This document shows, piece by piece, positions 16,268-59,243 of a stretch of 64,000 nucleotides of DNA. This stretch comes from Chloroflexota bacterium (GTDB lineage Bacteria; Chloroflexota; Dehalococcoidia; Tepidiformales; Tepidiformaceae). Within the stretch, counting starts at the first letter, position 1, and each line of letters opens with the position of its first letter. A program made the translations under genes and the position numbers. The stretch covers positions 186,001-250,000 of the forward strand of contig JAPPAK010000001.1 in assembly GCA_026705605.1 (NCBI GenBank). Direction: 5' to 3'. Under the pieces are notes generated by a model. The model ran no database searches. It worked only from the letters and a program-made list of their open reading frames with translations, and was not told where the DNA came from.

Positions 16268-17623
16268 ATGGAAGACACGCTCATTGAGCAGCTGAAGAAC
16301 GAGATCCGCTACGAGTTCTCCCGCGAGGGTCCCCCCGAGGGCTTCCCCAAGTTCCCCGACATCCCCGGCGGACGCTACACCGACCCCGCCTTCTTCGAGC
16401 TCGAGCAGAAGTACCTCTGGCCGCGAACCTGGCTGCTTGCCGGCCGCCAGGAAGACCTGCCCGAAGTCGGCAGCTACTGGGTCTGGGAGTCGCTTCGCGA
16501 CACGCCCGTCGTCCTCGTCCGCGATGCCGACATGCGCATCCGCGCCTTCCGCAACGAGAGCCCCAACAACGCCCCGCTCGTCCCCTGGCACGACGAGAGC
16601 CACCTGCGGACCGAAGTCGAGTTCGACGCCCCCGGCAAGCTCTTCCGCCAGCAGCACTTCCCGCGCCGCACCCTCCCCGAAGGCGTGCTCCGCTGCCAGC
16701 GACGCGGCTGGGCCTACGACACCAACGGCCACCTCGTCGCCGTGCCCTTCGGCGAACAGCTCGACGCCATCCCCTACGAGGACCGCAGCCTCACCGAGTA
16801 CCGCTGCGAGGTCTGGGACGGCTGGGTCTTCGTGAACCAGGACCCCGACGCCATGCCCCTGCTCGAGTGGCTCGGCCCTATCGCCCGCCAGATGGCCCAG
16901 TTCCAGGGCGAGAACCTGCGCCTCTTCGAGAAGGACTCGCTCGTCATCAACTGCAACTGGAAGGTCACCGTTGAGGCTTTCCAGGAGGTCTATCACTTCA
17001 AGCACATTCACCAGAAAGATGGAGTCACCTCGATCGATCAGCGCGGCGCCACCATGGGCCTCTTCCCCCACGGCCACTCCCGCATGATCACGCCCGTCAC
17101 GAAGCGCGCCGCCGCCGCCTCGGGCATGGACGACCCCCTCGACTGGCGCCCGGGCCTCGGCATGATGCGCAGCTTCGCCGTCAAGGGCCCCATCCCCGAG
17201 ATCGAGACCGTCGTGCCCATGGTCAACTGCACCAGCACCGCCTTCAGCATCTTCCCCAACCTCATCACCCCCGTCGGCTCCACGGGCATGCCCTTCCTCC
17301 TCTGCTGGCCCATCGATATCGGCCACACCCTCTTCGAGTGGGTCACCTTCCAGAACGACTGGGGGGACGACGACGACCCCGCCGTCGTCCAGATGCGCGC
17401 CGACCGCCTCCACCAGCGCACTGTCGTGATGGAGGAGGACACCCGCAACATGACGCCTATGCAGAAGTCGCTCGACTCCCCCGGCCTCATCGGCATTCCC
17501 GTCAGCTACCAGGAGCGGCGCATCTGGCACTGCGCCGAGACGCTCGACCGCACGATCGGCCCGGAGCGCATCCCCGAGCACCTGCGCGTGCCCCAGCTCC
17601 TCGAGCCCTACCTCGAACGCTAG
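16268..17623 (+). CDS. Ring-hydroxylating-oxygenase alpha-subunit homologue lacking Rieske ligands, paralogue 1
   Basis: A 451-residue homologue of Rieske non-haem iron oxygenase alpha subunits. The catalytic domain keeps the iron site: Glu240, His243 and His248 in 'EAFQEVYHFKHIH', and Asp391 in 'MEEDTRNM', which sits where the third ligand is expected. The N-terminal Rieske domain can be aligned ('RAFRNESPNNAPL' and 'RCQRRGWAYDTNGHL'), but Cys-x-His has become Ser98-x-Asn100, and in Cys-x2-His the second ligand is Arg146; only Cys143 remains. A 2Fe-2S cluster therefore cannot form. The ATG at 16268 has GGAGGA close by; a start at 16229 would add 13 residues. The paralogue is at 57903. It may be a Rieske-independent enzyme. 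Its stop overlaps the VOC gene. Confidence 0.88.
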   Translation: MEDTLIEQLKNEIRYEFSREGPPEGFPKFPDIPGGRYTDPAFFELEQKYLWPRTWLLAGRQEDLPEVGSYWVWESLRDTPVVLVRDADMRIRAFRNESPNNAPLVPWHDESHLRTEVEFDAPGKLFRQQHFPRRTLPEGVLRCQRRGWAYDTNGHLVAVPFGEQLDAIPYEDRSLTEYRCEVWDGWVFVNQDPDAMPLLEWLGPIARQMAQFQGENLRLFEKDSLVINCNWKVTVEAFQEVYHFKHIHQKDGVTSIDQRGATMGLFPHGHSRMITPVTKRAAAASGMDDPLDWRPGLGMMRSFAVKGPIPEIETVVPMVNCTSTAFSIFPNLITPVGSTGMPFLLCWPIDIGHTLFEWVTFQNDWGDDDDPAVVQMRADRLHQRTVVMEEDTRNMTPMQKSLDSPGLIGIPVSYQERRIWHCAETLDRTIGPERIPEHLRVPQLLEPYLER

Positions 17624-18033
17624 GCCGGGCCCGCCGGCTCGGAGAAGTTGAGCAGGTTCCCGTCCGGGTCCCGGACGATGAAGCCGGTGAGTCCCCACGG
17701 CTTCGTCTCAAGCGGCCGGCAGAAGTCGACGTCGAGGCCAGCGTACTCCCGGTACAACCCTTCGACATCGTCGACCTCCAGGTAGGCGGCCAGCAGCTCG
17801 CCTCGCTCGGCCGCCTCCCGGTCGAGCACGGGAGCCTGGACGAGGCGCATGTTCAGCCGCACCGCGTCCCGCGAGAACTGCGCGTACACCGGCGGGTCAC
17901 CGAACAGGAAGCGGACCTCGAACCCGAGCTGCTCGCCGTAGAACTCGGCTGCACGCTCCATGTCGCCCGTGAACAGCTGCGGGTAGGCGGCAGTCAGCCG
18001 TCCAGTCCCCGTCGATTCTCTTGAGGCGCTCAT
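17620..18033 (-). CDS. VOC family (glyoxalase/bleomycin-resistance-like) protein
   Basis: A 137-residue vicinal-oxygen-chelate fold protein. Two beta-alpha-beta-beta-beta modules are visible, starting with 'AAYPQLFTGDMERAAEFYGE' (residues 15-34) and 'LAAYLEVDDVEGLYREY', and ending in 'GFIVRDPDGNLLNFSEP', the usual VOC C-terminal metal-ligand strand with Glu. Functions in the family range from ring-cleaving dioxygenase to isomerase and antibiotic binding; nothing here decides. It shares its CTAG stop with the convergent oxygenase homologue and is immediately downstream of purF. Confidence 0.85.
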   Translation of the reverse strand: MSASRESTGTGRLTAAYPQLFTGDMERAAEFYGEQLGFEVRFLFGDPPVYAQFSRDAVRLNMRLVQAPVLDREAAERGELLAAYLEVDDVEGLYREYAGLDVDFCRPLETKPWGLTGFIVRDPDGNLLNFSEPAGPA

Positions 18034-18061
18034 GCGTGCCTCTCGGGTGGCGATCCGCCCG

Positions 18062-19519
18062 TCAGCCGGAGCCCGACGAGCCCGTGGTCGCCAGGTCGCG
18101 CTCCGCGCGCGGGGCCACCAGCGGCAACTGGTCCTGCACGTCCATCGGGTAGCGGTTGGTGAAGCAGCCGTTGCAGAGGGAGTCCGCCGGACGGCGTGTC
18201 GACCGGACCAGTCCCTCGACGCTCAGGTAGCCCAGCGAGTCCGCGGCGATGTGCTCGCGGATCTCCGCCACGGTGTTGTTCGCCGCGATCAGCTCCGACC
18301 GCGTGGCCATGTCCACGCCCAGGTGACAGGGCGCGATGATCGGCGGCGAGGCGATGCGGACGTGCACCTCCTTCGCCCCCGCCCGGCGCAGCAGTTCCAT
18401 CACGCGCGGCTTCGTCGTTCCGCGCACGATCGAGTCGTCCACCACCACCACCCGCCGCCCCTCCAGCACCTCCCGCATCGCGTTCAGCTTCAGCGCCACG
18501 CCCGCATCCCGGATGCGCTGGTCCGGCTGGATGAACGTCCGCCCCACGTAGCGGTTCTTCACGAGCCCGTCCTGGTAGGGCAACCCCGCCTCCCGCGCGA
18601 ATCCTATCGCCGCCGGGATGCCCGAATCGGGTACCCCGATGACGAGGTCCGCGCTCGGCGGAGCCGGCTGCTCCCGCGCCAACTCCTCGCCCAGCCGCTC
18701 CCGCGCCAGGTAGATCAGCTCGCCCGAGAGTCGGCTGTCGGGCCGCGCGAAGTAGACGTACTCCAGCGTGCACCCTGCCGTCCGGTCCGACTGCCCCAGC
18801 GGGAAGAAGCTGCGCATGCCGTTCGCGTCGATCTGGACCACCTCACCCGGCGCCACCTCCCGCTCGATCGTCGCCCCCAGGTGCTCGAGGGCGCACGTTT
18901 CGGAGGCGGCGACCCAGCCGTCCCCGAGCCGCCCCAGGCAGAGCGGACGCACCCCCAGCGGGTCGCGCACCGCGAACAGCGTGTCCGGCGTCATGATCGT
19001 CAGCGAGTACGCCCCGCTCACGCGCCGCATTACGTAGTGGAAGCGCTCCTCCCACGTGCCCGCGGGTGCCAGCGTCAGCAGGTGCGCGATCAGCTCCGTG
19101 TCGGCCGTGCCGTGCAGCTCCACGCCCATCGCCGCGACGTCCTCGCGCAGCACGTCGGCGTTGACCAGGTTCCCGTTGTGCGCGACCGCAATCTCCGAGC
19201 CGCTTTCCCGGTCGCGCACGACGATCGGCTGCGCGTTCCGCGCCAGCGACCCGCCCGCCGTGCTGTAGCGCGTGTGCCCGATGGCGATGTGCCCCTGCAG
19301 GCGCGCCAGGTCCGGCTCGTCGAACACGTGCGACACCAGCCCCATGCCCGTGCGCAGCCGCACCGGCCCGCCATCGCTCGTGGCGATGCCGGCGCTCTCC
19401 TGGCCGCGGTGCTGGAGTGAGTAGAGCCCGTAGAAGGTGAGCCGAGCGACATCCTCTCCCGGGCCGTAGACGCCAAAGACGCCACAGGCCTCGCGTGGAT
19501 GGTCGCCGCCGTCGCTCAA
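18062..19519 (-). CDS. purF: Amidophosphoribosyltransferase
   Basis: A 485-residue first-committed-step enzyme of purine synthesis (PRPP plus glutamine to phosphoribosylamine). After an 11-residue propeptide the nucleophile Cys12 lies in 'ACGVFGVYG'; the PRPP loop is 'VVVVDDSIVRGTT'. Cysteines in 'GCTLEYVYFARPDS', 'APCHLGVDM' and the C-x2-C of 'LCNGCFTNRYP' match the Bacillus-type enzyme that carries a 4Fe-4S cluster. The only reasonable start is a TTG at 19519, unusual for a housekeeping gene. No other pur gene is adjacent; purA is 7 kb away. Confidence 0.96.
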   Translation of the reverse strand: MSDGGDHPREACGVFGVYGPGEDVARLTFYGLYSLQHRGQESAGIATSDGGPVRLRTGMGLVSHVFDEPDLARLQGHIAIGHTRYSTAGGSLARNAQPIVVRDRESGSEIAVAHNGNLVNADVLREDVAAMGVELHGTADTELIAHLLTLAPAGTWEERFHYVMRRVSGAYSLTIMTPDTLFAVRDPLGVRPLCLGRLGDGWVAASETCALEHLGATIEREVAPGEVVQIDANGMRSFFPLGQSDRTAGCTLEYVYFARPDSRLSGELIYLARERLGEELAREQPAPPSADLVIGVPDSGIPAAIGFAREAGLPYQDGLVKNRYVGRTFIQPDQRIRDAGVALKLNAMREVLEGRRVVVVDDSIVRGTTKPRVMELLRRAGAKEVHVRIASPPIIAPCHLGVDMATRSELIAANNTVAEIREHIAADSLGYLSVEGLVRSTRRPADSLCNGCFTNRYPMDVQDQLPLVAPRAERDLATTGSSGSG

Positions 19520-19636
19520 AGGCCCGTCCGCCCTTCGCGCGTGGCTTATTCGCCGCGCAGGCTCAGTATAGCGCCGATGCTCAGATGGGCTATGCGAACG
19601 CCGGGCCCGCGCAGACCCAGCGAATCCGGACAGACC

Positions 19637-21310
19637 TCACGACCCAGCCTCCCCGAAACACTCGGGCACAAGCTCCCGCACCGTGCCCGGAAGCCTGATG
19701 ACGATGCCGCTCAGGTCGCTTCCGTCCACGACGATCCGCGTGGCTTCGCTCTCCTCCCTCGTGAAACCACTCTCTTCCTCGTACCATCCAAGCTCGACGG
19801 ACTCTGGGGGGCAGTATCTGGTGACCTGAAGCCGGTAGGTGCTGTCCGGTGGACGAATCGTAAAGCGGGCGTTGCTGGCGACGGTCACCCCTTCGCTGCC
19901 CGAGCCGTCGACACGGACCGCGTACACGGAGAGACGAGTGGCATCGACAGGATTGTCGTCCGGGCCGCGGATACTCCCGGTAACGGTTCGTCGCACCACG
20001 AGGACCGTCGCACGATGGGCTGCGATTCCCTCATAGGCGTCCTCCGGAGAAAGCCCGAACGCGTCCTCGAACGCTTCCTCCCAGCTCTCGCTGGTCGGCA
20101 GTGCCTCGTAGTACACAACCAGGGCGGCTTCGCCTGCCCGGCTAACGAGCCACTCGGCTGCCAGCGTCGCGGTGGATGCGGTCTCCACGCCTGTCAGTTC
20201 CGCCGCTGTCGGCGACTGCCTTTCGAGGTCCTCAAGGGGAGTTGAGTCGAAGCTTGCCGCCCAGGTCACCAGGGCAAGCGCGTCCCCCAGTGTCTTCTCG
20301 CCCCTCCAGTGGCGAAAGAGGTGTGCTGTGTACATCGCCGCGCCCTCGCTCAACCACTCGGGCCCGAGGTCCCTGCCCCCTGCGGCCTGCTCCTGGAACG
20401 CCTCGAAGTAGAACCTCTCGATCCAATCGAAAGTTCGCGTCGCCTGGACGAAGAGGGCGCCGTTCCGGTAGGCGGCCTTGTGAATCTGGTCCACAGGTTC
20501 GACCGGTCCTCCCAGCGCTGTTGCCCAAGCGTCGTCGTCCGCCGCGATGTGAATGGGAAGGTTGGGCACATGAATCCCGAAGCGTTCGTCGAAGAACTGG
20601 ATGACGTCGGCCACCCTGGCGCGAAGCGCGTCCCGCTCCTCCTCCGGCACATCCCCCCAGAACGTGACAATCGGATCGCCCTCTTCTCTGGCCTCCGGGG
20701 TCGGCGTCGCTACAGCCGTCTCAGTTGCGGCAGGCGTGGGAGTCCTTTCGGATGCCGGCTCGGAGGTGGGAACCGGCGTAGATGTAGCCGTGGCGGCAGG
20801 CGTGCCGGTTGGGGCGGCCGTTGCCGTCGGAGTGGGGGTGGGTGTTGTCGGTGGCGAGGTCGCCTCTGCCGTGGCGGGTGTAGCACTGACGGTGGCTGCG
20901 CTGGCGGGTTCGTCCCCGGGGCTCGCCGCCGGCTCCCCGTCGTTCACGATCAGGTAGGCCAGGAATCCGGCGGCAACTGCGCCCCCGCCGACCACCGTGA
21001 TCGCCGCGCCAGCCAACACCGGCTTCCAGAAACCGACGAGCAGTCCAATCGGGGCCAGCATCCAGCGCCGCGCGGCTGGCTGCGATGCTGGCTGCGGCTC
21101 GCCACGCCATGCGACCAAGTCCGCCCGTTCCGTCAGGTCAAGCTTGTTGCGGATGTTCCTGATGTGAAACTTGACCGTCGCAAGGCTGAGGCCGAGGCGA
21201 ACGGCGATCTCCGCGTTCGTCGCGCCGGTGCGTATTTCGCGCAGGACGCGCCACTCCGCCGGAGTGAGGATGTCGGGATGAGGCGGACGCCCACGCCCTC
21301 GTCTGAGCAC
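19637..21310 (-). CDS. LuxR-type HTH / membrane / degenerate peptidase fusion regulator
   Basis: A 557-residue fusion with clear modules: a LuxR-type helix-turn-helix at residues 13-66 ('LTPAEWRVLREIRTGATN', 'VKFHIRNIRNKL'), a single membrane helix at about 97-122, a Pro/Thr/Ala linker at 125-208 and an outside domain resembling gluzincin (MA-clan) peptidases with 'PEWLSEGAAMYTA' at 318-330. Where HExxH should be there is 'RFYFEAFQ' (299-306), so the zinc site is lost. A carboxypeptidase-regulatory-like beta sandwich ('GSIRGPDDNPVDATRLSVY') follows near residues 450-510. The start is a GTG directly after an in-frame stop. It looks like a ToxR-style one-component membrane sensor that binds peptides or wall fragments without cutting them. 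Confidence 0.85.
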   Translation of the reverse strand: MLRRGRGRPPHPDILTPAEWRVLREIRTGATNAEIAVRLGLSLATVKFHIRNIRNKLDLTERADLVAWRGEPQPASQPAARRWMLAPIGLLVGFWKPVLAGAAITVVGGGAVAAGFLAYLIVNDGEPAASPGDEPASAATVSATPATAEATSPPTTPTPTPTATAAPTGTPAATATSTPVPTSEPASERTPTPAATETAVATPTPEAREEGDPIVTFWGDVPEEERDALRARVADVIQFFDERFGIHVPNLPIHIAADDDAWATALGGPVEPVDQIHKAAYRNGALFVQATRTFDWIERFYFEAFQEQAAGGRDLGPEWLSEGAAMYTAHLFRHWRGEKTLGDALALVTWAASFDSTPLEDLERQSPTAAELTGVETASTATLAAEWLVSRAGEAALVVYYEALPTSESWEEAFEDAFGLSPEDAYEGIAAHRATVLVVRRTVTGSIRGPDDNPVDATRLSVYAVRVDGSGSEGVTVASNARFTIRPPDSTYRLQVTRYCPPESVELGWYEEESGFTREESEATRIVVDGSDLSGIVIRLPGTVRELVPECFGEAGS

Positions 21311-21381
21311 GCCGTCAATCTAAGCCGTGAGACCGGGGAATTTCCCCAGCCCCCCACATTCGTGTCAGGCCTGCGGAAGCG

Positions 21382-22053
21382 CTAGTCCGCCGGTTCGAAG
21401 GGGTCCGTCGGCGGCTTGTCGTAGTCGACGTACGGGGGCCAGAGCGACTCAAGCTCGTTCCTGATGGGGTCGCCCTCGGGCAGGTAGCGGTGGAACTGCG
21501 GCTCCACGTCGCGACGCTGCCAGCCACCCGCGATCGTGTCTTCCTTGATCTTGTCCTGGAGGAGCATCAGGCCCGTCAGCAGCGACTCCGGTCGTGGCGG
21601 GCAGCCCGGCACGTACACGTCAACCGGCAGCAGCACGTTCACGCCCGGGGTCACGCTGTAGGCGTAGGCGAAAGGCCCGCCCATGGTGGCGCAGCCGCCC
21701 ATCGCGATCGCCCACTTCGGCTCGGGCATCTGCAGCCAGACGCGCCGAACGGCCGGCGCCATCTTCCACGTCACCGTGCCTGGCACGATCAGCAGGTCCG
21801 CCTGCCGCGGCGAGGCCCGAAAGATCTCGGCCCCGAAGCGCGCGATGTCGTAGCGTGGCATCGCCGTCGCGATCATCTCCATCGCGCAGCACGCCAGCCC
21901 GAACATCGCCGGCCACAGCGAGGATCGCCGAGCCCAGTTCAGCACCTGGTCCACGCTCGTCACGAGCACGGTCTGCTGGAACTCCTCCTCCACGCCTGTG
22001 ACGTCGTGAAGTGGCAGCGACTCGTAGACCTTCGTCGAATGTTCTGCGGGCAT
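21382..22053 (-). CDS. nuoB: NADH-quinone oxidoreductase subunit B
   Basis: A 223-residue NuoB, the complex I subunit that carries cluster N2 next to the quinone site. All four cluster cysteines are present: the tandem pair in 'GLACCAMEM', one in '[10 protein letters not shown]' and one in '[11 protein letters not shown]'. N-terminal and C-terminal extensions are slightly longer than in the minimal 160-residue form. It is solitary: neither nuoA nor nuoC/D flanks it. The neighbours are a zinc-ribbon protein and the LuxR fusion. An intact sequence argues for function, so the rest of complex I should be encoded elsewhere, or this is a second copy. Confidence 0.95.
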
Positions 22054-22086
22054 CGCGTTCAGCCTACGGCGGCGTCGGAACAGGCG

Positions 22087-22290
22087 CTAGCGCCGTCCCG
22101 AGTAGTACGCCCCGTCATTGATCGGCTCGTCGATAAACAGATCGCCGTTCCGGATCTTCATGTTGTAGCCGCACTCCGGATTCGTGCACGCCCAAGCCTT
22201 CCAGTGAATGGGAGCGCCCTGACTTCCGAAGTCCGAAAAGGGAACGAGATCACCGTCGTCACACCGACGGCAGCGCGGTAGCTCTTCCAT
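22087..22290 (-). CDS. Small zinc-ribbon protein
   Basis: A 67-residue protein with a C-x2-C knuckle near the N-terminus ('PRCRRCDDG') and a second C-x4-C pair ('ACTNPECGYN'), spaced as in a zinc ribbon. The C-terminus 'YYSGRR' is basic. It probably binds one zinc. No specific family is recognised. GGAGGA abuts the ATG. It is upstream of nuoB on the same strand with 33 bases between, so co-transcription is likely, but a link to complex I assembly is only a guess. Confidence 0.7.
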   Translation of the reverse strand: MEELPRCRRCDDGDLVPFSDFGSQGAPIHWKAWACTNPECGYNMKIRNGDLFIDEPINDGAYYSGRR

Positions 22291-22371
22291 TCCTCCACCC
22301 CAACCCGTGGTAGTCGCGGAATCCTACCAATCGCCCCCACGCCGGGCAACGGCCTCCGGGAACGCGGTTTC

Positions 22372-22836
22372 CTAGGCCTTCGCCGGCGCTGTTCGCGCCG
22401 CCTCCTGCAGGTCCGCCAGCAGCAGCTCGAAGTCGCCCTCCGGGATCTCCCGCAGGTTGCCCTGGTAGGCCAGCGTCCAGTGCTCCCGAGGCCACCGCTG
22501 CGTCCACTCCGTGCGGTCGTGGTACGGCTCCGCGTCGAGCCACTGCTCCTCGTCCAATTCCACCAGCGGCTCCGTGTCGACCCGGAAGGGATACAGCTCG
22601 TCCGGCTTCTTGCTGCTCTGCCAGATACGCGTGTTCTCCTCGACGATCCCCGAGGTCACCCGCACCGCCCCCGCTATCTGCTTCTTCCCCGTCACGTAGA
22701 ACACGAGCGCATCGCCCGCCTCGATGCGGTACACCATCTTGCTGCGCGTGCTCTTGAAGGCATGACGCGCGAACCCCAGCTCACGCGTCTTCCCGAAGAT
22801 CTCCGGACCCTGCGTCACCATCCAGTACCTCGGCAC
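22372..22836 (-). CDS. EVE-domain (PUA-like) protein
   Basis: A 154-residue protein of the EVE domain, a PUA-related fold that binds modified bases. It begins 'MPRYWMVTQGPEIFGKTREL' and contains 'AGDALVFYVTGKKQIAGAVR', the family hallmark. The best start is a GTG at 22836, seven bases after GGGAGGAA; it restores the conserved N-terminal PRYW. The frame is open further upstream but overlaps ribD. EVE proteins are associated with modified-DNA recognition and tRNA modification; here there is no restriction neighbour, so a housekeeping role is more likely. Confidence 0.85.
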   Translation of the reverse strand: MPRYWMVTQGPEIFGKTRELGFARHAFKSTRSKMVYRIEAGDALVFYVTGKKQIAGAVRVTSGIVEENTRIWQSSKKPDELYPFRVDTEPLVELDEEQWLDAEPYHDRTEWTQRWPREHWTLAYQGNLREIPEGDFELLLADLQEAARTAPAKA

Positions 22837-22870
22837 GATTCCGTTCCTCCCGGTGTGTCTCCTGTCGCCT

Positions 22871-23980: not shown

Positions 23981-24046
23981 TCCCCCAGCTTAGCGGCCTC
24001 TCCCGCCCGCGGGCTCGTGTGAACCCGCGTAGTAAGCTTGAAGCAC

Positions 24047-24122
24047 GCCTCCGTAGCTCAACGGATAGAGCACCTGGCTTCGGACCAGGGGGTTGTGGGT
24101 TCGAGTCCTGCCGGGGGCGCCA
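24047..24122 (+). tRNA. tRNA-Arg (anticodon UCG)
   Basis: The acceptor stem GCCTCCG pairs fully with CGGGGGC (one G-U). The anticodon arm is CCTGG-CTTCGGA-CCAGG, which gives the anticodon TCG, and the T arm has the loop TTCGAGT. The discriminator base is G and CCA is encoded at the 3' end (24120-24122). The total is 76 bases. Confidence 0.96.
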
Positions 24123-24135
24123 CTCCCTGCGCTGT

Positions 24136-24468
24136 TCAGCGAACGGCCGCCGCCGAGGGTGGCTCAATCGTCAAACTCTCCACCTCTCCGTCCGCCCCAC
24201 GGACCTTGACCTCGACTTCCGCATCGAAAGCCGCGAGCAGCCTCTGGACGGTTCGCCAGGTCGGCTGCACTTCGGCGGCTTCCATCCGGGAGATCTCCGG
24301 CTGGGTCATCCCCGCCCGCTCCGCGACGGCAGCCTGCGAGAGCCCCGTCACTCGTCGCAGGGTAATGAGCAGGCTCGCGAGCTGGTACTGCGGCCTGAGG
24401 GCGTCATAGGCGACCCGGGTCTGTGGGTCGGCAAGCAGTTCGGCCTTGAGTTCCTTCCAATCGGTCAT
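24136..24468 (-). CDS. HigA-type antitoxin (XRE-family HTH)
   Basis: A 110-residue protein with an XRE helix-turn-helix in the middle ('TGLSQAAVAERAGMTQPEIS', about residues 41-60), preceded by a helix with 'LRPQYQLASLLITLRR' and followed by 'QRLLAAFDAEVEV'. It is 90 bases downstream of a RelE-like toxin gene on the same strand, the HigBA order, in which the toxin gene comes first. It should neutralise the toxin and repress the operon through the palindrome upstream of the toxin. It ends 13 bases from the 3' end of the tRNA-Arg gene. Confidence 0.88.
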   Translation of the reverse strand: MTDWKELKAELLADPQTRVAYDALRPQYQLASLLITLRRVTGLSQAAVAERAGMTQPEISRMEAAEVQPTWRTVQRLLAAFDAEVEVKVRGADGEVESLTIEPPSAAAVR

Positions 24469-24558
24469 GACAGTCTCCTACCCCCGGGCCATTGCCCGAG
24501 CTGTCTCCCCGTTCTAGGCGGTAGTTCAGCGTTAGAAGTTCGTCTCCTCTCTCGCAAG

Positions 24559-24888: not shown

Positions 24889-24894
24889 TCACTC

Positions 24895-24913: not shown

Positions 24914-24960
24914 GACTCTCGCCAGCCCCAGCTGAACTTCCGCCCCTACAATGGCGCCCC

Positions 24961-26098: not shown

Positions 26099-26165
26099 CC
26101 CCACACAAGCTTGACGCCCCCACCGTATCAGACCTCAATGTACGTCGATGCTGGCGCGCTCATGG

Positions 26166-44826: not shown

Positions 44827-44926
44827 CTAGTGATTGGTGACTAGTGACTAGTGGTTAGTCCCCACTCCACCTCCCATGGGGGGAGGCGGAGGGGACCAGT
44901 CACCAGTCACCATCCACTAGTCACTA
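44827..44926. repeat. Heptamer-repeat hairpin element 2
   Basis: The left arm is AGTGATT, GGTGACT, AGTGACT, AGTGGTT and AGTCCCC (44829-44863). The right arm is GGGGACC, AGTCACC, AGTCACC, ATCCACT and AGTCACT (44891-44925). It has the same design as element 1 and lies exactly between two convergent genes, starting after one TAG and ending within the other gene's stop codon. A bidirectional terminator function is likely. Confidence 0.9.
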
Positions 44927-46141
44927 CATGGCCTTGATGCCCTGGTACTCCTGGGCGAACACGCACTCCTGCAGCCCGAGACCCACGTCGTTCGGGTCGT
45001 CCAGGTTCGTGTAGCGGGTGTACAGCTCGGCGAAGTGGCCTCCGGGCCGCTGCTTCACCTCGTTCCCGTCCAGGTCGCGCACGATTACCGGGTGGGAGAC
45101 GTCCCAGACCTCTCCCTCGACCGTGTCGCCCCGGTAGACCCCCCGCCCGAGCCCGTCGTCCCAGCCACCCCAGTAGCCCCCGCCCTGCATGTAGACGGGT
45201 TTGCTCACCGTCTCCAGCAGGAACCGGTCCACGCCCCCCTCCGGACGCGTCAGGTCGAGCCGCGCGCTCTTCAGCCGCGGGAAGCCGTCCTCGAACTCCG
45301 TGCTCACCACGTCAACGTCCGTGTACGCCCACCCCTCCTTGCCGGAGTCGTACGGGTAGTCGATGCGGCTGTGTACCCGCCCGTACTCCGGCAGGTTTCC
45401 GCCGCCCGTGCCTGAGGCCACGATCGTCCCGTCGGTGTGGTGCCGGAACGAGCAGTACATCGAGCGGTCCGGGAACCGCACCAGCGCCCACCAGCGCGCC
45501 CCCGGCTTCCCCCAGACCGACCGCCGCTCCAGCGGTGGCGCCGCGTGGCGGTTCGGCTGCTCGCCCTCGCCCGTGTTCGCCTGCCCCCAGGAGTGGTCCT
45601 TCGCCCCCACCCAGCCGTCGTCCACGTCGAAGCGGTACTCCTTGCCCCCCACCTTGATCCAGCCCGAGAGCCAGCCGAGCTGCACGAGGTTCGAGCGCTC
45701 CCCCACCATCCTCCCGTCCTGGTACATCTTCACGCCGGGGCACTCGTCGTACGGTGGCGCCGAACTCTCCCAGAGGATGTCGAACGAGCAGTCCACGTCC
45801 GTCTCCTCCAGCCCCAGCCGCAGCGTCCGCAGCCCCCGGATGATCTCCTGCGAGAACGGCCCCACCGTCAGGTCGTCGATGTCCGGCCGCAGGCGGCGCG
45901 TCGCCCGCACGTTGTACTGCTTCCCGTCGCCCGTGCTCAGGATCGAGTAGGCGTCGATCGTGTTCGTGTTGTGGTAGAGCCGCAGCGCCGTGATCAGGTT
46001 GACCTCGCCGTCCGGGTCGCCGATGCAGTGCCAGTACCCGTCGCTCCAGCCCGGACTCGGGTTCGCGATGATGTCGAACGTGTCGATCGTCTGGTGGCGG
46101 GGGTACTCATCCAGCTCGGTCAGGACGCGTTTTGGGGACAT
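44924..46141 (-). CDS. Lipocalin-like hydratase-type protein (CrtC/AttH or DUF7064-like)
   Basis: A 405-residue, beta-rich, Trp- and Gly-rich cytoplasmic protein without signal peptide. The motif 'VGAKDHSWGQANTG' near residue 190 matches the D-H-S/N-W-G motif of the CrtC/AttH-like and DUF7064 group of two-lipocalin-domain proteins, some of which hydrate isoprenoid double bonds. Family assignment by this motif and length is moderately safe; activity is unknown. The start is an ATG at 46141. It is convergent with the DUF1330 gene and divergent from an SDR gene. Confidence 0.7.
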   Translation of the reverse strand: MSPKRVLTELDEYPRHQTIDTFDIIANPSPGWSDGYWHCIGDPDGEVNLITALRLYHNTNTIDAYSILSTGDGKQYNVRATRRLRPDIDDLTVGPFSQEIIRGLRTLRLGLEETDVDCSFDILWESSAPPYDECPGVKMYQDGRMVGERSNLVQLGWLSGWIKVGGKEYRFDVDDGWVGAKDHSWGQANTGEGEQPNRHAAPPLERRSVWGKPGARWWALVRFPDRSMYCSFRHHTDGTIVASGTGGGNLPEYGRVHSRIDYPYDSGKEGWAYTDVDVVSTEFEDGFPRLKSARLDLTRPEGGVDRFLLETVSKPVYMQGGGYWGGWDDGLGRGVYRGDTVEGEVWDVSHPVIVRDLDGNEVKQRPGGHFAELYTRYTNLDDPNDVGLGLQECVFAQEYQGIKAM

Positions 46142-52339: not shown

Positions 52340-52443
52340 GCGCGCCTCCGCTTACCTCGCGCCAGCCTACTCCCCGGCCCGGCGGAGCGCGCCCGCTGCC
52401 CGCTTGCGCCCGCGCCCGACGCTGGCCAAGCTGCGCCTCAGCC

Positions 52444-53349
52444 ATGCGTATCGCCTCCCTCCTCCCCAGCGCCACCGAGATCGTCTTCGCCGTCGGCGCC
52501 GGCGACGAGGTCGTCGGCGTCTCCCACGAGTGCGACTACCCCGCCGCCGCTCGGGACCTCCCCGTCCTCACCGGCCCCGCCGTCGAGACGCGTGGCCTTC
52601 CCCAGGCCGAGATCGACGCCGCCATCAGCAGCCTGCTCGCCTCCGGCGGCTCCACCTACGCCATCGATGTGTCCAGCCTGCGCGAGCTCCAACCCGACCT
52701 CGTCATCACCCAGGCCCTCTGCGATGTCTGCGCCGTGAGCGAGGGCCAGGTCCATCGCGTCGTGCACGAAGAGCAGCTCGGCGCCCGCGTCCTCACCCTC
52801 ACGCCCCTCGACCTCGAGGGCGTCGCCCGCTCCATCGAGGAGGTCGGTGAAGCGACCGGCCGCGCCGCCGAGGGCGCCCGCCTCGCCGCCGACCTGCGCG
52901 AAGGCATCGCACCGCCCTCCGCCCTCCCCTCCCCACCGCCCCGCGTGCTCGCCCTCGAGTGGTTCGACCCGCCCTTCACCGCCGGACACTGGGTACCCGA
53001 GCAGATCGCCCGCGCCGGCGGCGAGGACGTGCTCGCCAGCCCCGGCCAGAAGTCCGTGCGCGTGACCTGGGATACCGTCGCCGCCTCCGCCCCCGATGTC
53101 GCCCTCCTCCTCCCCTGCGGCCTCTCCCTGGACGAGGTTGTGCATGAAGCCGGGTCGCTGGCCGACCGCCCCGAGTGGCGCGGTCTCCCTGCCGTCGCCA
53201 GCGGCGCCGTCTGGGCCCTCGACGCGAACGCATGGTTCAGCCGCCCCGGGCCCCGCCTCCTCGACGGCATCGAGGCCCTCCGCGCCATCCTCGCAGACCC
53301 CACCGGCGACCGCCCCGTCCCCGGCGCCCGCCGCCTCCCTGCTCCCTGA
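52444..53349 (+). CDS. BtuF-like cobalamin/metal-chelate binding protein
   Basis: A 301-residue class III periplasmic-binding-protein fold. It has 'RIASLLPSATEIVFAVGAGD' and 'VVGVSHECDYPAAARDLPVL' in the first lobe and 'WFDPPFTAGHWVPEQIARAG' in the second. There is no signal peptide, so it is either a cytoplasmic cobalamin-binding variant, which is common, or the start is truncated. No BtuC or BtuD is adjacent and no cobalamin riboswitch is seen upstream. It is divergent from the thiolase-like gene. Confidence 0.87.
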   Translation: MRIASLLPSATEIVFAVGAGDEVVGVSHECDYPAAARDLPVLTGPAVETRGLPQAEIDAAISSLLASGGSTYAIDVSSLRELQPDLVITQALCDVCAVSEGQVHRVVHEEQLGARVLTLTPLDLEGVARSIEEVGEATGRAAEGARLAADLREGIAPPSALPSPPPRVLALEWFDPPFTAGHWVPEQIARAGGEDVLASPGQKSVRVTWDTVAASAPDVALLLPCGLSLDEVVHEAGSLADRPEWRGLPAVASGAVWALDANAWFSRPGPRLLDGIEALRAILADPTGDRPVPGARRLPAP

Positions 53350-53376
53350 CCCGGGTTGTGCCGGATACTCCCTTGC

Positions 53377-53637
53377 CTAGCCGAACATCCACTGGGCGAT
53401 CGCCAGGGCTGTCCCGGCAATCGCGATGTTCACTGCGAGCATGCCAAGGCCGAAGGTAAGCCCGAATGTAAGCAGGGCTCGGTTGAGCGCGCTCTGGAGC
53501 ATCGCTTCCGTCACGAGGTTCTCGGTGCCCTTCGCCACTCCCTCTTCCACCACATTCACCGTGGCGCGGGCGAGCGGCTCGGAAGTCCCAGCCTCCTGGA
53601 GTTCGGTGATGGCCTTGTGCGTATCCAACGTCGCCAA
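53377..53637 (-). CDS. CCDC90/DUF1640-like coiled-coil membrane protein
   Basis: An 86-residue protein. The N-terminal part 'LDTHKAITELQEAGTSEPLA' matches the CCDC90/DUF1640 start (D-T-x-x-x-V-x-x-L-x-x-A-G), followed by a short coiled coil and one C-terminal membrane helix ('LGMLAVNIAIAGTALAIA'). The coiled coil is much shorter than in typical members. A TTG start ten bases after GGAGG is preferred. The gene has lower GC than its neighbours. Confidence 0.7.
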   Translation of the reverse strand: MATLDTHKAITELQEAGTSEPLARATVNVVEEGVAKGTENLVTEAMLQSALNRALLTFGLTFGLGMLAVNIAIAGTALAIAQWMFG

Positions 53638-53981
53638 TGCAGTAGTTCCTCCATGCAAAAGTAGGGAATAGGCACAGACGTGTCAACCGCTTGAAACCGT
53701 CGCCCCCTGAACCTGTGTCTTTCCACGGCTCGCGTGCGATACATCTCATGCAGTGCCCCGCGACTCCGTCACCCTCCTCGTCGAGCACCACCCAGGGCAT
53801 AGGGGTCGACCACTGACCCGCCTGCAACGGCTGCTCGCTCGACCACCACGAGCTCGCGGAGGCCGCCGTTAGCTGACCGGAAGCATGCTGGTTGCTACCC
53901 TCGCGGCGGCGGGACGCGCACGCAGGAGATGACCCAGCGCTTCTCGTCGCGAAACGGAATGGTGCGAGCACACAGCAACCC
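53638..53981. other. Gene-free stretch upstream of nhaA
   Basis: This 344-base gap between the divergent CCDC90-like and nhaA genes holds no convincing gene. A minus-strand frame starting at 53800 encodes 'GHCMRCIAREPW', but it runs through the CCDC90-like gene out of frame and is probably spurious. I see no RNA gene; promoters for both flanking genes should lie here. Confidence 0.45.
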
Positions 53982-55262
53982 ATGACCGCTCTTGGCTCAA
54001 GCAGAAGGCGCGGCACCGCCCCGGTCTGGTGGGCGCCCGCTACTCGTGTCCGCTCCACCATCGTCGAGTTCATGCGGCTCGAGGCCGCGGGCGGGATCGT
54101 CCTCCTCGTCGCCGCCGTCGCCGCCCTGGTCTGGGTGAACGTCCACGGCGACTCCTACCACGACTTCTGGGACCACCACATCGAGTTCGGCATCCTCCTC
54201 TTCGACGAGCTGTTCGCCGTCGATGAGGGACTGAAGGCCTGGGTGAACGATGGCCTCATGGTCATCTTCTTCTTCGTCGTCGGCATGGAGATTAAGCGCG
54301 AGCTCGTCGTCGGCGAGCTTCGCGATCCCCGCCGCGCCGCCCTCCCCATCATCGGAGCCTTCGGCGGCATGCTCGTCCCCGCCGGCTTCTTCGCCCTCCT
54401 CAATCAGGGGGGCGAGGGTATCGATGGGTGGGGCATCCCCGTCGCTACCGATATCGCCTTCGTCGTGGGCGTTCTCGCTCTCTTCGGGCGCCGGTTGCCC
54501 GCCGGGCTGCGCGTCTTCCTCCTCACCCTCGCCATCGCCGACGACATCGGCGGCATCGCCATCATCGCCGTGTTCTACACCGACGACCTCTCCCTCCCCC
54601 ACCTTGGCACGGCCATCGGGCTGCTCGCCCTCATCCTTGCCGGCCAGCGCTTCGGGGTGCGCCACATCGCCATCTACGTCGTGGTCGGAATCATCCTCTG
54701 GTACGCGACCCACGAGTCTGGCATCCACGCCACCATCGCAGGCGTCGCGCTGGGACTCCTCACGCCCGCGCGCCCCTTCCGCGGCCGCGACGTGATGCAC
54801 TCCCTCGAGCACACGCTGCTGCCCTACTCCAGCTTCCTCATCGTGCCCCTCTTCGCCCTCGCGAACGCGGGCGTCGAGGTCACGCCAGACTCCCTCGGCA
54901 AGGCCTTCGGGGGAAGCATCGCCTGGGGCGTGGTCCTCGGCCTCGTCGTGGGGAAATTCGTGGGCATCAGCGCCACCACCATCGCCGGGGCTCGCCTCGG
55001 CGTGGGGCGCCTCCCAGCCGGTGTGAATCTGGGGCATGTCGTGGGCGCTTCTCTCCTGGCCGGGATCGGCTTCACCGTCTCCCTCTTCATCGCCGAGCTC
55101 TCCTTCGCCGATGCCCCTGCCCTGCTCGACCAGGCGAAGAAGGGCGTCCTCGCCGGCTCCCTCATCGCCGGGGCGCTGGGCGCCGTCTTCCTGCTCGTCA
55201 TCTCCCGCGTCACCCCCACCAGCGCCGAGCACGGCTCCATGGAGAGCGTCGCCCACAAGTAG
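53982..55262 (+). CDS. nhaA: Na+/H+ antiporter NhaA
   Basis: A 426-residue inner-membrane sodium-proton antiporter with about twelve hydrophobic helices. The ion-binding Asp pair is in 'LAIADDIGGIAII' (equivalent to Asp163/Asp164), helix IV has 'PVATDIAFVVGVLALFG', and 'FFFVVGMEIKRELVVGEL' is the typical helix II region. The ATG at 53982 gives a normal N-terminus. It maintains sodium and pH balance, relevant for a saline or alkaline habitat. Confidence 0.96.
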   Translation: MTALGSSRRRGTAPVWWAPATRVRSTIVEFMRLEAAGGIVLLVAAVAALVWVNVHGDSYHDFWDHHIEFGILLFDELFAVDEGLKAWVNDGLMVIFFFVVGMEIKRELVVGELRDPRRAALPIIGAFGGMLVPAGFFALLNQGGEGIDGWGIPVATDIAFVVGVLALFGRRLPAGLRVFLLTLAIADDIGGIAIIAVFYTDDLSLPHLGTAIGLLALILAGQRFGVRHIAIYVVVGIILWYATHESGIHATIAGVALGLLTPARPFRGRDVMHSLEHTLLPYSSFLIVPLFALANAGVEVTPDSLGKAFGGSIAWGVVLGLVVGKFVGISATTIAGARLGVGRLPAGVNLGHVVGASLLAGIGFTVSLFIAELSFADAPALLDQAKKGVLAGSLIAGALGAVFLLVISRVTPTSAEHGSMESVAHK

Positions 55263-55327
55263 CCGCCCCTTGACCCGCCCCCCGCCCCCGCCCATCCTCC
55301 CCGCATCCAGCGTCGCGGAGGTTTGCC

Positions 55328-56284
55328 ATGCCCAACCCACCCGTTGAAGACGAGGTCCTGACCTATCTCGATACGCTCTCGAACTGGGGCCGCTGGGGCG
55401 ACGACGATGAGCTCGGCACCCTCAACCTGATCACGCCCGAGAAGCGTCGCGCCGCCGCCGCCCTCGTGCAGGAAGGTATCAGCGTCTCCTGCTCCTGGGA
55501 GATCGAGACGCGCCCCCAGCCCGACCACGCCTTCGGCACGCCCCAGCGCTACATGCTCTTGACCGGCCAGGGCCTCAACGACGAGCACCGCGTCGGCGCT
55601 ACGGGCGCCCGCAACGCCGGCGCCCTCGAGTTCATCGGCTTAATCTTCCACGGCTACGCCATCACCCACATCGACGGTCTCTGCCACTTCTTCTGGGACG
55701 GCAAGATGTACAACGGCAAGCCCGCCGAGCTCGTCACCTCCGGCCTCGGCGCCACCCACCACGCCATCACCGCCCTCAGGGACGGCATCGTCACCCGCGG
55801 CGTCCTCCTTGATGTTGCCGCCGCCCAGGACCGCCCCTGGCTCGACCCCGGCGAGGGCGTCTATCCCGAGCACCTCGAGGCCGCCGAGGCCCGCCAGAAC
55901 GTGCGTGTCGAGCCCGGCGACGCCGTCCTCCTCCGCACCGGCTACGGCCGCAAGAAGGGCGAACTCGGCCGCGAGCAGCTCCCCGCCAACGGCTACCCCG
56001 GCTGGCACGCCGCCAGCCTCCCCTGGCTGCACGAGCGCGGCGCCGCCGTCATCGGCGCCGACACCGCCCAGGACGCCATGCCCTCCGGCTACACCGCCAT
56101 GAACCAGCCCGTGCACATCGTCAGCCTCACCGCCATGGGCCTCCACCTCATCGACAACTGCAACCTCGAGCAGCTCGCCGAGACCTGCGAACGGCTCGGC
56201 CGCTGGGAGTTCCAGTTCGTCCTCTCGCCCCTGCGCATGAGCGGCGGCACCGGCAGCCCGGCGAACCCACTCGCCATTTTCTGA
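55328..56284 (+). CDS. Cyclase family protein (kynurenine formamidase-like)
   Basis: A 318-residue metal-dependent hydrolase of the cyclase/KynB superfamily. The metal motif reads 'ITHIDGLCHFFWDGKMYNG', matching H-x-D-x3-H, and 'PGDAVLLRTGYGRKKGE' and 'HIVSLTAMGLHLIDNCNLE' follow. The protein is longer than KynB (about 210 residues), as in the plant-type and alicyclic-acid members, so kynurenine formamidase activity should not be assumed. GGAGG is present six bases before the ATG. Confidence 0.88.
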   Translation: MPNPPVEDEVLTYLDTLSNWGRWGDDDELGTLNLITPEKRRAAAALVQEGISVSCSWEIETRPQPDHAFGTPQRYMLLTGQGLNDEHRVGATGARNAGALEFIGLIFHGYAITHIDGLCHFFWDGKMYNGKPAELVTSGLGATHHAITALRDGIVTRGVLLDVAAAQDRPWLDPGEGVYPEHLEAAEARQNVRVEPGDAVLLRTGYGRKKGELGREQLPANGYPGWHAASLPWLHERGAAVIGADTAQDAMPSGYTAMNQPVHIVSLTAMGLHLIDNCNLEQLAETCERLGRWEFQFVLSPLRMSGGTGSPANPLAIF

Positions 56285-56347
56285 GGCCGGAGCAAGTTCA
56301 AGCCTCCTGAGTCATGGCCGCTGCGAGGGGTGAGGCCCGTGCCTTCC

Positions 56348-57352
56348 TCAGGCCAGGCCTTGCCGCTTGGCGAGCCGGATCGCCGTCGTGATCGCCTCGA
56401 CCATGCTCGTCTCGTCCGCCACGCCCTGGCCCGCGATGTCGAACGCCGTCCCGTGGTCGACCGATGTGCGGATGAACGGCAGCCCCAGGTTCACGCTGAT
56501 GCTCTCCTCGAAGCCGTGAACCTTGATCGCGATGTGCCCCTGGTCGTGGTACATCACGACCACCACTTCGTACTGGCCCGCGATCGCCTGCGGGAACACC
56601 GAGTCCGCCGGGACCGGCCCCGTCGCCGCGATCCCCTCCGCCCGCGCGTCCTCCACCGCCGGCCCGATCTCCGTCAGCTCCTCGGTGCCGATCAGCCCCC
56701 CGTCCCCCGCGTGCGGGTTGAGCGCGGCCACACCGATGCGCGGTTCCCCGAACCCCCACTCGCGGAAGTGCCGGTCCGTCAGCCGGATCGCCTCCAGCAC
56801 GTTCGCGCGCGTCACGTAGGCGCACGCCTCCGCCAGCGTCTTGTGCGTCGAGAGGTGCATGCAGCGCAGGTTCCCCGTAATCAGCATCGTCGCCACGTGG
56901 TCCGACCCCGACAGCCGCTTGAACACCTCCTGGTGCCCGGTATCCGAGCTCCCCGCGAGCTGCCATGACTCCTTGTTGATGGGCGCCGTCACGATCGCGT
57001 CCACCTCCCCTGCTAGAGCCAGCCGCGCCGCCTCCTCCACCCAGATGTGCGATGCCTCCCCCGCCACCAGGGAGTGCTCCCCCATCGCGAAGTAGTCCTC
57101 CCGGAACCCCCCGACTGCCAGCACCTCCGTCGTCCCCGCCTCCCCGCGCACGTCCTCCGGACGCCGTACCGGTCGCAGCTCGTCCGTCGAGCCGATCAGC
57201 CGCAGCGCCGCCGCCGCGCTCGTCGGCGATCCCAGCAGGAACAGCCCCGCTTCGTCCCGCAGCTCGTCCCGCTGCAGGGCCTTCGCCGCTACCTCCGGCC
57301 CAATCCCCGCCGGATCCCCCAGCGTAATCGCGATGAGCGGCCGTTCCGTCAC
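56348..57352 (-). CDS. pdxA: 4-hydroxythreonine-4-phosphate dehydrogenase family
   Basis: A 334-residue NAD-dependent PdxA. It shows 'ITLGDPAGIGPEVAAKAL', 'VTAPINKESWQLAG', the first metal His in 'DTGHQEVFKRL', the second in 'LNPHAGDGGLIG' and the third in 'MYHDQGHIAIK'. It ends 'GQGVADETSMVEAITTAIRL'. It acts in vitamin B6 synthesis; PdxA2-type paralogues act in terephthalate or hydroxythreonine catabolism, and the catabolic setting leaves that option open. The GTG start has GGAGGAAAG before it. An AT-rich operator-like array lies upstream. Confidence 0.93.
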   Translation of the reverse strand: MTERPLIAITLGDPAGIGPEVAAKALQRDELRDEAGLFLLGSPTSAAAALRLIGSTDELRPVRRPEDVRGEAGTTEVLAVGGFREDYFAMGEHSLVAGEASHIWVEEAARLALAGEVDAIVTAPINKESWQLAGSSDTGHQEVFKRLSGSDHVATMLITGNLRCMHLSTHKTLAEACAYVTRANVLEAIRLTDRHFREWGFGEPRIGVAALNPHAGDGGLIGTEELTEIGPAVEDARAEGIAATGPVPADSVFPQAIAGQYEVVVVMYHDQGHIAIKVHGFEESISVNLGLPFIRTSVDHGTAFDIAGQGVADETSMVEAITTAIRLAKRQGLA

Positions 57353-57375
57353 GCTTTCCTCCGCGGAGCGTTTGA

Positions 57376-57452
57376 AATGATCATTGGGTTAGACAAATCT
57401 AGCGGTTAGACCTTTCGACCGCCCGATGTCTAATTCTCAACCAAAATTAGAC
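57376..57452 (-). promoter_or_regulatory. AT-rich operator array upstream of pdxA
   Basis: Four copies of TTAGAC occur in both orientations at 57389-57394, 57406-57411, 57428-57433 (as GTCTAA) and 57447-57452. The last two form the perfect inverted repeat GTCTAATT-N9-AATTAGAC. The perfect palindrome AATGATCATT lies at 57376-57385. The patch is much less GC-rich than its surroundings and sits directly upstream of pdxA. Confidence 0.65.
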
Positions 57453-57464
57453 TCTGGGCCCTGC

Positions 57465-57797
57465 CTACCCCCGCTCCGACCGCGTTGCCGCCTTCGCGTC
57501 CAGCGGCGACCCCTCGACGTAGTCGATGACGCTCCAGTGATCCGAGATGATCCGCAGGATCTCTCCCGGCGGACCGTGGTGCGGGGACGCCATGTACTCC
57601 TCGAAGTCGGCGTGGTTCTCGAACGAGCACGAGATGCCGATGTCGCACGGATCGCCGAGGTCCTGGAAGTTCCAGCCACAGTAGTAGTCGATCGCCTTCG
57701 GGTGCTCGCTGATCGGCCCCAGCCTCTCGAAGAATGTCTCGAGGTCCTCAATCGAGGCGTCCTCGCGCAGCGTGATCGTGACGATGTGGCGAATCAT
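57465..57797 (-). CDS. Dabb-domain (stress-responsive A/B barrel) protein
   Basis: A 110-residue dimeric alpha-beta barrel protein. It begins 'MIRHIVTITLREDASIEDLE', the Dabb hallmark of 'HIVxxxxK/RxxxS' type, and has 'CSFENHADFEEYMASPHH' typical of the second half. Function is unknown in bacteria; plant relatives are stress-induced or act as polyketide cyclases. ATG at 57797 has GGAGGAG seven bases before it and is preferred over the upstream start at 57815. Confidence 0.85.
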   Translation of the reverse strand: MIRHIVTITLREDASIEDLETFFERLGPISEHPKAIDYYCGWNFQDLGDPCDIGISCSFENHADFEEYMASPHHGPPGEILRIISDHWSVIDYVEGSPLDAKAATRSERG

Positions 57798-57902
57798 GGG
57801 CGGCTCCTCCAGCAACCGGCTGCTCGTGGGGCAACGTGCCGGTCAGCGCGTAGAATCGCAGGACGCGACCGGCGCGGCCAGCGCCGGTCCGTGGAGGACC
57901 CC

Positions 57903-59243
57903 GTGAAAGAAGCCCTCGTCGAGCAGCTGAAGCAGGAAATCCGCTACGAGTTCTCGCGCGAAGGGCCGCCCGAGGGCTTCCCCAAGTTCCCCGACATTCC
58001 CGCCGGGCGCTACCGCAGCCAGGAGTTCTTCGACCTCGAGATGAAGCACTTCTGGCCCACGGTCTGGCTCTACGCCACTCGCGAGGAGGAGCTTCCCGAG
58101 CCCGGCTCCTACCAGGTCTGGGACCACCTCGGCATCCAGGTCATCCTCGTCCGTGGCGAGGACCTGGCCATCCACGCCTTCGAGAACGCCTCCGTTGACG
58201 GCTCGCCCATCTTCGACGTCCCCGACGACAGCCACCTCTTCCACTGGAAGGAGTTCGACTCCGCCGGGAACAACCTCCAGTTCCAGCAGGAGTTTCCCCG
58301 CCGGAAGCTCCCCGAGGGCGTCTTCCGCTCCTCCGAGGGCCACCTCTACGACTTCACAACCGGGAAGTTCGTCGGCGACAAGGCCGGAATTCCCAGGGAG
58401 AAACACCGCATCCGTGAGCTCCGCTGCGAGACGTGGGATGGCTGGGTCTTCATCAACCAGGACCCGGACGCCGAGCCCCTGCTCGACTGGCTCCACCCCC
58501 TCCCCGAGCAGATGTCGATGTTCCAGGGCGCCACCCTCCGCATGATCGACAAGCGCTGGACCATCATCCCCTGCAACTGGAAGGTCACCGTCGAGGCCTT
58601 CCAGGAGGTGTATCACTTCAAGCACATCCACCAGAAGGCGGGCGTCTCCGGCCTCGACCAGCGCGGCGCGACGATGGGCGTTCTGCCCAACGGCCACTCC
58701 CGCATGATCACGCCCCTCTCCAAGCGCGCCGCCGAGATGACCGGCATGGACCACCAGCTCGACTGGCGCACCGACCTCGACCGACAGGCCTTCGGCGCCC
58801 TGCACGACGGCATGGCCGAGATTAAGACCGTCAACGGCATGACGCGCTGCACGAGCACGGCCTTCAGCGCCTTCCCCAACCTCGTCACGCCCGTGAGCGC
58901 CACGGGCATGCCCTTCCTCCTCGCCTGGCCGCTCGACGTGGGAACGACCCGCTTCGAGTGGATCACCTTCTGCGTCGACTGGGGCGACGGCCCCTCCCCC
59001 GCCTCCTCCGAGGTCTGGCGGAACCGCCTCGACGGGTTCGACGTGGTCATGGAAGAGGACACGCGCAACATGGCGCCCATGCAGAAGTCGCTCAACTCGC
59101 CCGGCCTCACCGGCATGCCCGTCAGCTACCAGGAGCGGCGCATCTGGAACTGCGCCGAGCAGCTCGACCGCATGATCGGCCCCGAGCGCATCCCCGAAGA
59201 CCTGCGCGTGCCCCAGTTGCTCGCGCCCTACGTCGAGCGCTAG
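57903..59243 (+). CDS. Ring-hydroxylating-oxygenase alpha-subunit homologue lacking Rieske ligands, paralogue 2
   Basis: A 446-residue paralogue of the protein at 16268. The first 35 residues ('EIRYEFSREGPPEGFPKFPD') and the iron-site segment ('NWKVTVEAFQEVYHFKHIHQ') are nearly identical to it. The iron site is intact: Glu235, His238, His243 and the Asp of 'MEEDTRNMAPM'. All four Rieske ligand positions are lost ('HAFENASVDGSPIF', 'GVFRSSEGHLYDFTTGKF'). So no 2Fe-2S cluster is possible and electrons must come another way, or the protein is not an oxygenase. The start is a GTG with GGAGGA four bases upstream. It is followed after 15 bases by an MDR dehydrogenase, probably an operon partner. 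Confidence 0.88.
   Translation: MKEALVEQLKQEIRYEFSREGPPEGFPKFPDIPAGRYRSQEFFDLEMKHFWPTVWLYATREEELPEPGSYQVWDHLGIQVILVRGEDLAIHAFENASVDGSPIFDVPDDSHLFHWKEFDSAGNNLQFQQEFPRRKLPEGVFRSSEGHLYDFTTGKFVGDKAGIPREKHRIRELRCETWDGWVFINQDPDAEPLLDWLHPLPEQMSMFQGATLRMIDKRWTIIPCNWKVTVEAFQEVYHFKHIHQKAGVSGLDQRGATMGVLPNGHSRMITPLSKRAAEMTGMDHQLDWRTDLDRQAFGALHDGMAEIKTVNGMTRCTSTAFSAFPNLVTPVSATGMPFLLAWPLDVGTTRFEWITFCVDWGDGPSPASSEVWRNRLDGFDVVMEEDTRNMAPMQKSLNSPGLTGMPVSYQERRIWNCAEQLDRMIGPERIPEDLRVPQLLAPYVER

Follow-up and report, generated by a model that had tools for sequence, protein, structure and literature searches.

Reciprocal loss of metal-site ligands in two alpha-subunit homologues of Chloroflexota and sphingomonads: a putative two-chain Rieske oxygenase

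In ring-hydroxylating Rieske oxygenases each alpha subunit carries both metal centres, and the Rieske centre which feeds an iron site belongs to the adjacent subunit. The cluster lies ~12 Å from the iron of the next subunit and ~45 Å from that of its own, and an Asp is described as the acid that links both centres between the subunits (PMC12445004). The first Rieske domain reported to be split off its oxygenase is that of the 7-methylxanthine N7-demethylase NdmCDE, in which NdmC has no Rieske cluster and presumably draws on the extra one of the reductase NdmD, to which the Rieske domain is fused; in addition the glutathione S-transferase (GST)-like NdmE is required (PMC4408171). The chlorophyllide a oxygenase MpCAO of Micromonas pusilla consists of two polypeptide chains, for which a heterodimer or a trimer of dimers was suggested, and is active in vitro (PMC9615114). 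Two different alpha chains are also listed in one C3 assembly for the alpha3alpha'3 enzyme NdmA/NdmB (PMC12445004, Table 1). The present study concerns a stretch of 64,000 nucleotides from a Chloroflexota bacterium of the family Tepidiformaceae (contig JAPPAK010000001.1, positions 186,001 to 250,000; referred to as the window), which encodes two alpha-subunit homologues, A1 and A2, with iron sites that appear intact and Rieske sites that appear dead.

Homologues of this kind are called A, a paralogue with a Rieske site only, which is encoded outside the window, is called D, and ordinary oxygenases with both centres are called two-site. With a probability of roughly 0.7 we consider A and D to be the two halves of a two-chain Rieske oxygenase, A with the iron and D with the Rieske centre, from which electrons would pass across the subunit interface. 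The proposal builds on sequence comparisons, namely on the reciprocal loss of ligands, the co-occurrence of A and D, their linkage in some of the genomes, selection which mirrors the split, and one clade for each type of protein. What we infer beyond that concerns the metal content, the physical A-D complex, its stoichiometry, the redox partner and the substrate.

Metal-site ligands of A and D

The reading frames of A1 and A2 are open over their whole length and the two proteins share 62% identity. The Rieske pairs of A1 are S98-P-N100 and C143-Q-R-R146 (C-x2-R). In A2 the first pair is S-V-D and the second is aligned as gap-S-S-E. The original prediction had read S-x-N and C-x2-R in A1 and the loss of all four ligands in A2, and the alignment agrees with it on both proteins. 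The catalytic domain PF00848 is found above the cut-off in both of them (E 4.4e-21 for A1, E 4.5e-19 for A2). The Rieske domain PF00355 stays below the threshold in A1 (15.2 vs a cut-off of 20.3 bits), and no match to it is listed for A2 in the Pfam scan.

The iron site of A1 is composed of E236, E240-x2-H243-x4-H248 and D391, and residues 229-250, which span the iron motif, are identical between A1 and A2. As predicted, this site is kept in both window proteins. When the family profile was compared with CntA (PDB 6y8j), the E-x2-H-x4-H segment aligned strongly and the downstream Asp segment weakly (i-Evalue 0.96). A structure prediction had been proposed as a check. The AlphaFold2 model of A1 (predicted local distance difference test, pLDDT, 88.5) has a Rieske-oxygenase fold, in which the dead Rieske domain is still predicted to be folded; all of the 50 Foldseek matches listed for it are Rieske oxygenases (best E 4e-21, alignments of 428-509 columns). 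The alignments confirm that both window proteins are homologues of Rieske-oxygenase alpha subunits in which the iron site is intact and the Rieske site dead.

The window genome (2.79 Mb on nine contigs) contains 22 Rieske-domain matches, which are 16 two-site proteins, five proteins without the catalytic-domain family, and D (L089). Two-site status was assigned to 15 proteins via the iron-motif pattern, including one (L074) with H-x3-H, and to L082 by eye with its catalytic family confirmed. The genome thus encodes 19 oxygenase alpha-type proteins (16 two-site, 2 A, 1 D), and D is the best match of A1 in it after the two A genes. In both sphingomonad D proteins, which are shorter than A, the Rieske motif is intact (CRHRG, CQYHSW) and the iron ligands are missing. 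In a Pfam scan of five D proteins PF00355 was found in 5/5 and a remnant of PF00848 in 3/5; a reductase domain was found in none of these five. A Rieske-oxygenase fold is predicted for the D of the ALOHA metagenome-assembled genome (MAG), which is not the window's own D.

Over all sequences the split of Rieske and iron ligands between A and D is, by alignment, reciprocal. E236, E240, H243, H248 and D391 are kept in 20/20 A, and 0/20 carry the full Rieske set, which agrees with the predicted absence of ligands for an own Rieske cluster. In D the four Rieske ligands C, H, C and H are found in 13/13 and H243, H248 or D391 in 0/13. The two-site relatives contain the four Rieske ligands, both His, the Asp and E240 in 26/26 and E or D at position 236 in 25/26, a count that excludes the partial two-site relative L073 and includes L072, which lies outside the clade in the tree. 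Among the proteins of the A2 type (W2), four (L036, L041, L042 and L046) still carry C-x-H as the first pair and the Cys that opens the second; the fourth Rieske ligand is gone in all 20 A. A possible alternative ligand, C-P-E-E-G-H in four W2-type proteins, was rejected on its alignment, in which its His occupies the column that usually holds Trp; close relatives do not retain the remaining ligands.

In CntA-like enzymes the acid that links both centres between the subunits is a Glu. E240 of A sits at the place of this acid, and its retention is as expected if an external Rieske centre still feeds the iron of A.

Co-occurrence, selection and descent

Two peptide patterns taken from the A pair were used to search the genome_contigs collection and gave 44 loci, the source of the A loci; the genomes reached through the A loci were paired with those of a class survey wherever the contig coordinates were identical. 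A was found in Chloroflexota, including a second Tepidiformaceae genome of the window genus (G103, A gene coordinates as in OY282446.1), and in two sphingomonads, Sphingopyxis sp. Root154 and a Sphingomonadales MAG. Its nearest relatives in Actinomycetota (Acidimicrobiia) and in other sphingomonads are ordinary two-site oxygenases. Directly after one such actinobacterial relative a second oxygenase of 533 aa with both motifs is encoded in tandem (L053:9255-10856).

Beside the window genome, 11/11 genomes reached through A loci carry D. In the class survey of 393 genomes 10 were above the threshold for A and 11 for D. The additional D genome, G325, has a completeness of 69%, and its contig breaks off within the A gene located after D and C (for C see Table 1). 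Altogether 13/13 genomes found with A or D have both, G325 with the start of the A gene only. They belong to three Chloroflexota genera and to the two sphingomonads. The association is strong (Fisher p 5e-19, kinship ignored). Two copies of A are present in 8/10 A-bearing genomes of the class survey, which together with low ratios of nonsynonymous to synonymous substitutions (dN/dS) bears out the earlier view that the presence of the protein at two separate loci speaks against decay.

Among 249 genomes of the sphingomonad family A was found in one and D in two at E 1e-40, one of the latter (G615) being a two-site oxygenase. Two further surveys were searched for D only, with one match each: the window genome in a draw of 251 genomes from the phylum (E 1e-36) and G010 itself in 196 genomes of its order (E 1e-40). 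Carriage on plasmids was considered and rejected, as every match was below 60% identity (933 for D, 481 for A; ligands of the matches not inspected); among the 15 matches listed for each, identities reach 36.6% for D and 35.9% for A.

Selection was estimated within the window genus from 8 W1-type proteins (the type of A1), 8 W2-type proteins (L038 left out) and 9 D, with 21 to 28 of 28 usable pairs per A region and 36/36 for D. The median dN/dS of the catalytic half of A is 0.12 (A1) and 0.09 (A2), that of its dead Rieske domain 0.23 and 0.27. For D the values are 0.13 in the Rieske domain and 0.32 in the dead catalytic half. Within this genus selection mirrors the A/D split. As the iron site is kept in 20/20 A and none of the tested A regions reaches a dN/dS of 0.3, the state of A1 and A2 is explained neither by chance nor by decay.

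The loop between the dead Rieske pairs comprises 42-46 residues in 20/20 A. In D it has 17 residues and in the two-site relatives 16-17, which makes the loop of A ~25 aa longer than that of the latter. Its dN/dS of 0.20 in A1 (residues 104-138) and 0.10 in A2 (residues 103-138) indicates that the long loop is under selection. Judged from the sequence, it may serve as a surface for docking or as a plug.

In the tree, which includes 14 of the 20 A rows, A forms one clade (14 rows, 100/100) and D another (13 rows, 100/99). Both clades lie inside the group of two-site oxygenases (97/97).

Gene neighbourhoods

The coordinates of the genes are summarized in Table 1. A and D are near neighbours in 4/13 genomes. 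In both sphingomonads the D gene adjoins A, with C-D head to head with A-B. In the ALOHA MAG (L158) A-B is followed by C-D on the opposite strand, all within ~4 kb, and the gene order in G325 is D-C-A. In the window A2-B-C stay together, and A1 and D are located elsewhere.

Table 1. Coordinates and properties of the A, B, C and D genes of the window genome.
Feature	Coordinates	Strand	Description
A1	16268..17623	+	451 aa alpha-subunit homologue; W1 type; intact mononuclear-iron site, dead Rieske site
A2	57903..59243	+	446 aa alpha homologue; W2 type; all four Rieske ligands gone, long loop as in A1
B	59259..60293	+	zinc-type medium-chain dehydrogenase/reductase (MDR) dehydrogenase; PF00107/PF08240; conserved neighbour, starts 15 nt after A2
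C	60302..61027	-	241 aa; no Pfam match of its own; homologues adjoin D in L158, L157, L044, L061
D	G000:C4:84411-85634 (= L089:1357-2580), outside the window	+	all four Rieske ligands, no iron ligands

A homologue of B follows A in the ALOHA MAG (47% identity) and in the sphingomonads L044 and L061 (30-41% over the matched pieces). Relatives of C accompany A, B and D in two phyla, and two sphingomonad C homologues weakly match a part of the coenzyme A (CoA)-transferase family III. Distant relatives of B (L096:6318-8216 and L159:13471-14562), MDR dehydrogenases of ~29-30% identity, are found at a distance of up to ~5 kb from D in the window genome and in G103.

The scanned neighbours of A1 and A2 include phosphatase-like, glyoxalase-like and glutamine amidotransferase/phosphoribosyltransferase proteins, an MDR dehydrogenase, a cyclase, PdxA, a nitroreductase and a molybdopterin oxidoreductase. 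A reductase or ferredoxin of Rieske oxygenases was not found among them. In one of the two sphingomonads a Fer2 ferredoxin is encoded near A (L044:11279-11599). Downstream of C, at 61064-63884, lie a nitroreductase-family gene and a molybdopterin oxidoreductase gene (715 aa), which are kept beside A2 in related MAGs. A further reading frame of the window with 405 aa (44924-46141) has a strong coding signal and no Pfam match.

The proposed two-chain oxygenase and known systems

In alpha3 rings each iron is reduced by the Rieske centre of the adjacent subunit, and for this reason a D placed beside A can complete one working site. D would occupy the place of the neighbouring subunit and bring its Rieske cluster close to the A iron. 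NAD(P)H would supply the electrons, which would pass via a reductase or ferredoxin to D and from there, past the conserved Glu240 of A, to the A iron, where O2 would be activated. The original prediction had concluded that proteins such as A1 and A2 need either another reductant or a self-reducing substrate, or else have a role other than that of an oxygenase. This is probably wrong: D is present in all 13 A genomes, and as it is a natural source of the missing cluster, an alternative electron supply is probably not needed.

Several points weigh against this proposal. By our own reasoning, a head-to-tail trimer built from both chains would contain a single working site. The four D proteins outside the window genus are shortened to 260-332 aa, with a large part of the catalytic domain missing, so that a classic mixed ring of A and D is less obvious. 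H-x4-H is absent anywhere in 12/13 D, and L101 has one whose origin was not traced; the alignment in the remnant catalytic part of D is uncertain. In the window genome D is located ~117 kb upstream of A1, without a C homologue within 20 kb around it and without a Rieske-oxygenase reductase in the 9 scanned of its 17 predicted neighbours. The position of D within the two-site group is poorly supported (81/28) and the D rows outside the window genus are on long branches. A and D as sister duplicates are marginally rejected (approximately unbiased test, p-AU 0.042), and a single duplication with complementary loss is therefore not supported. Finally, the co-occurrence is clustered by kinship: as 9 of the 13 genomes represent one genus, a fair count comes to about five lineages. 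Since the search patterns were drawn from A itself, a divergent A, or an A without D, could have been missed.

The alternative that survives best, which we regard as unlikely, takes D as a free Rieske ferredoxin derived from an alpha subunit, which would dock transiently to homomeric rings of A and perhaps to other oxygenases. The shortened D proteins would fit this role, as would the predicted model of one of them, which consists of the Rieske domain with a remnant beta-sheet and helix, and the unlinked position of the D gene in the window genome. However, D of the window genus aligns across most of the catalytic domain, and in a homomeric ring the predicted folded dead Rieske domain of A1 would fill the very place beside the iron. 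Still less probable is it that A acts as a Rieske-independent iron oxygenase, supplied with electrons by its substrate or a soluble reductant, and that D serves in another reaction. The iron site of A is indeed complete, and the usual reductase of Rieske oxygenases is not evident in the window genome, for which PF00175 was the only reductase family searched and gave a single match; on the other hand, D occurs in every genome found with A and close to it in some of them, and the Glu at the place of the linking acid is invariant in A. That both proteins are pseudo-enzymes (sensors or scaffolds) or in early decay is very improbable: the Rieske-site residues of the W2-type A do vary among close relatives, but the iron ligands of A and the Rieske ligands of D are invariant, dN/dS is low and lower in the site-keeping domain of each chain, and the A/D set is present in two phyla.

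If A and D form one enzyme, the transfer from the Rieske centre to the iron must cross between two different proteins. It would then be a natural enzyme in which this transfer is possible only between different proteins, and each metal centre could be varied, titrated or swapped separately, which is not possible in single-chain enzymes. There is also a consequence for annotation. A and D both match ordinary ring-hydroxylating oxygenase families, and neither of them should work alone as such an enzyme. In a wider form, which we hold to be fairly probable and with less confidence than the assignment of the two halves, the sequences describe a bacterial two-chain oxygenase of two half-dead alpha subunits, whose gene set is common to Chloroflexota and sphingomonads and in which, in one Chloroflexota genus, two iron chains share one Rieske chain.

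With canonical alpha subunits such as CntA and the biphenyl dioxygenase subunit BphA1, A shares the fold, the E-x2-H-x4-H plus Asp iron site and the NWK segment. In contrast to them, with both centres on each chain, A is without Rieske ligands and D without iron ligands. Measured against a single-chain alpha subunit, A thus has PF00848, the 2-His-carboxylate site by sequence and the predicted fold, and lacks Rieske ligands on the same chain.

Kunugi 2013 is reported to have found the Rieske motif on one MpCAO chain and the iron motif on the other. If this division of the centres is correct, the A/D pair resembles MpCAO in having a Rieske-only and an iron-only chain in the same genome. It differs from this algal pigment enzyme in being bacterial, in its gene neighbours and in the mostly two A per D in the window genus. 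NdmCDE also has an iron chain without Rieske cluster, which would obtain its electrons from the cluster of another protein. Unlike there, D is derived from an alpha subunit and is without a reductase domain, and A keeps a dead Rieske domain. A GST-like third component was not seen among the Pfam-scanned neighbours; some neighbours were unscanned and the genome was not searched for one. With NdmA/NdmB the proposed assembly has in common that two different alpha-type chains would be combined.

Among the literature matches listed, of which titles and the openings of abstracts were considered, no such bacterial pair other than NdmCDE was seen. The A/D pair would be a further way of splitting Rieske oxygenases beside NdmC/NdmD and the algal chlorophyllide a oxygenase. 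From its sequences it would work like these two systems, and it looks like a separate bacterial case.

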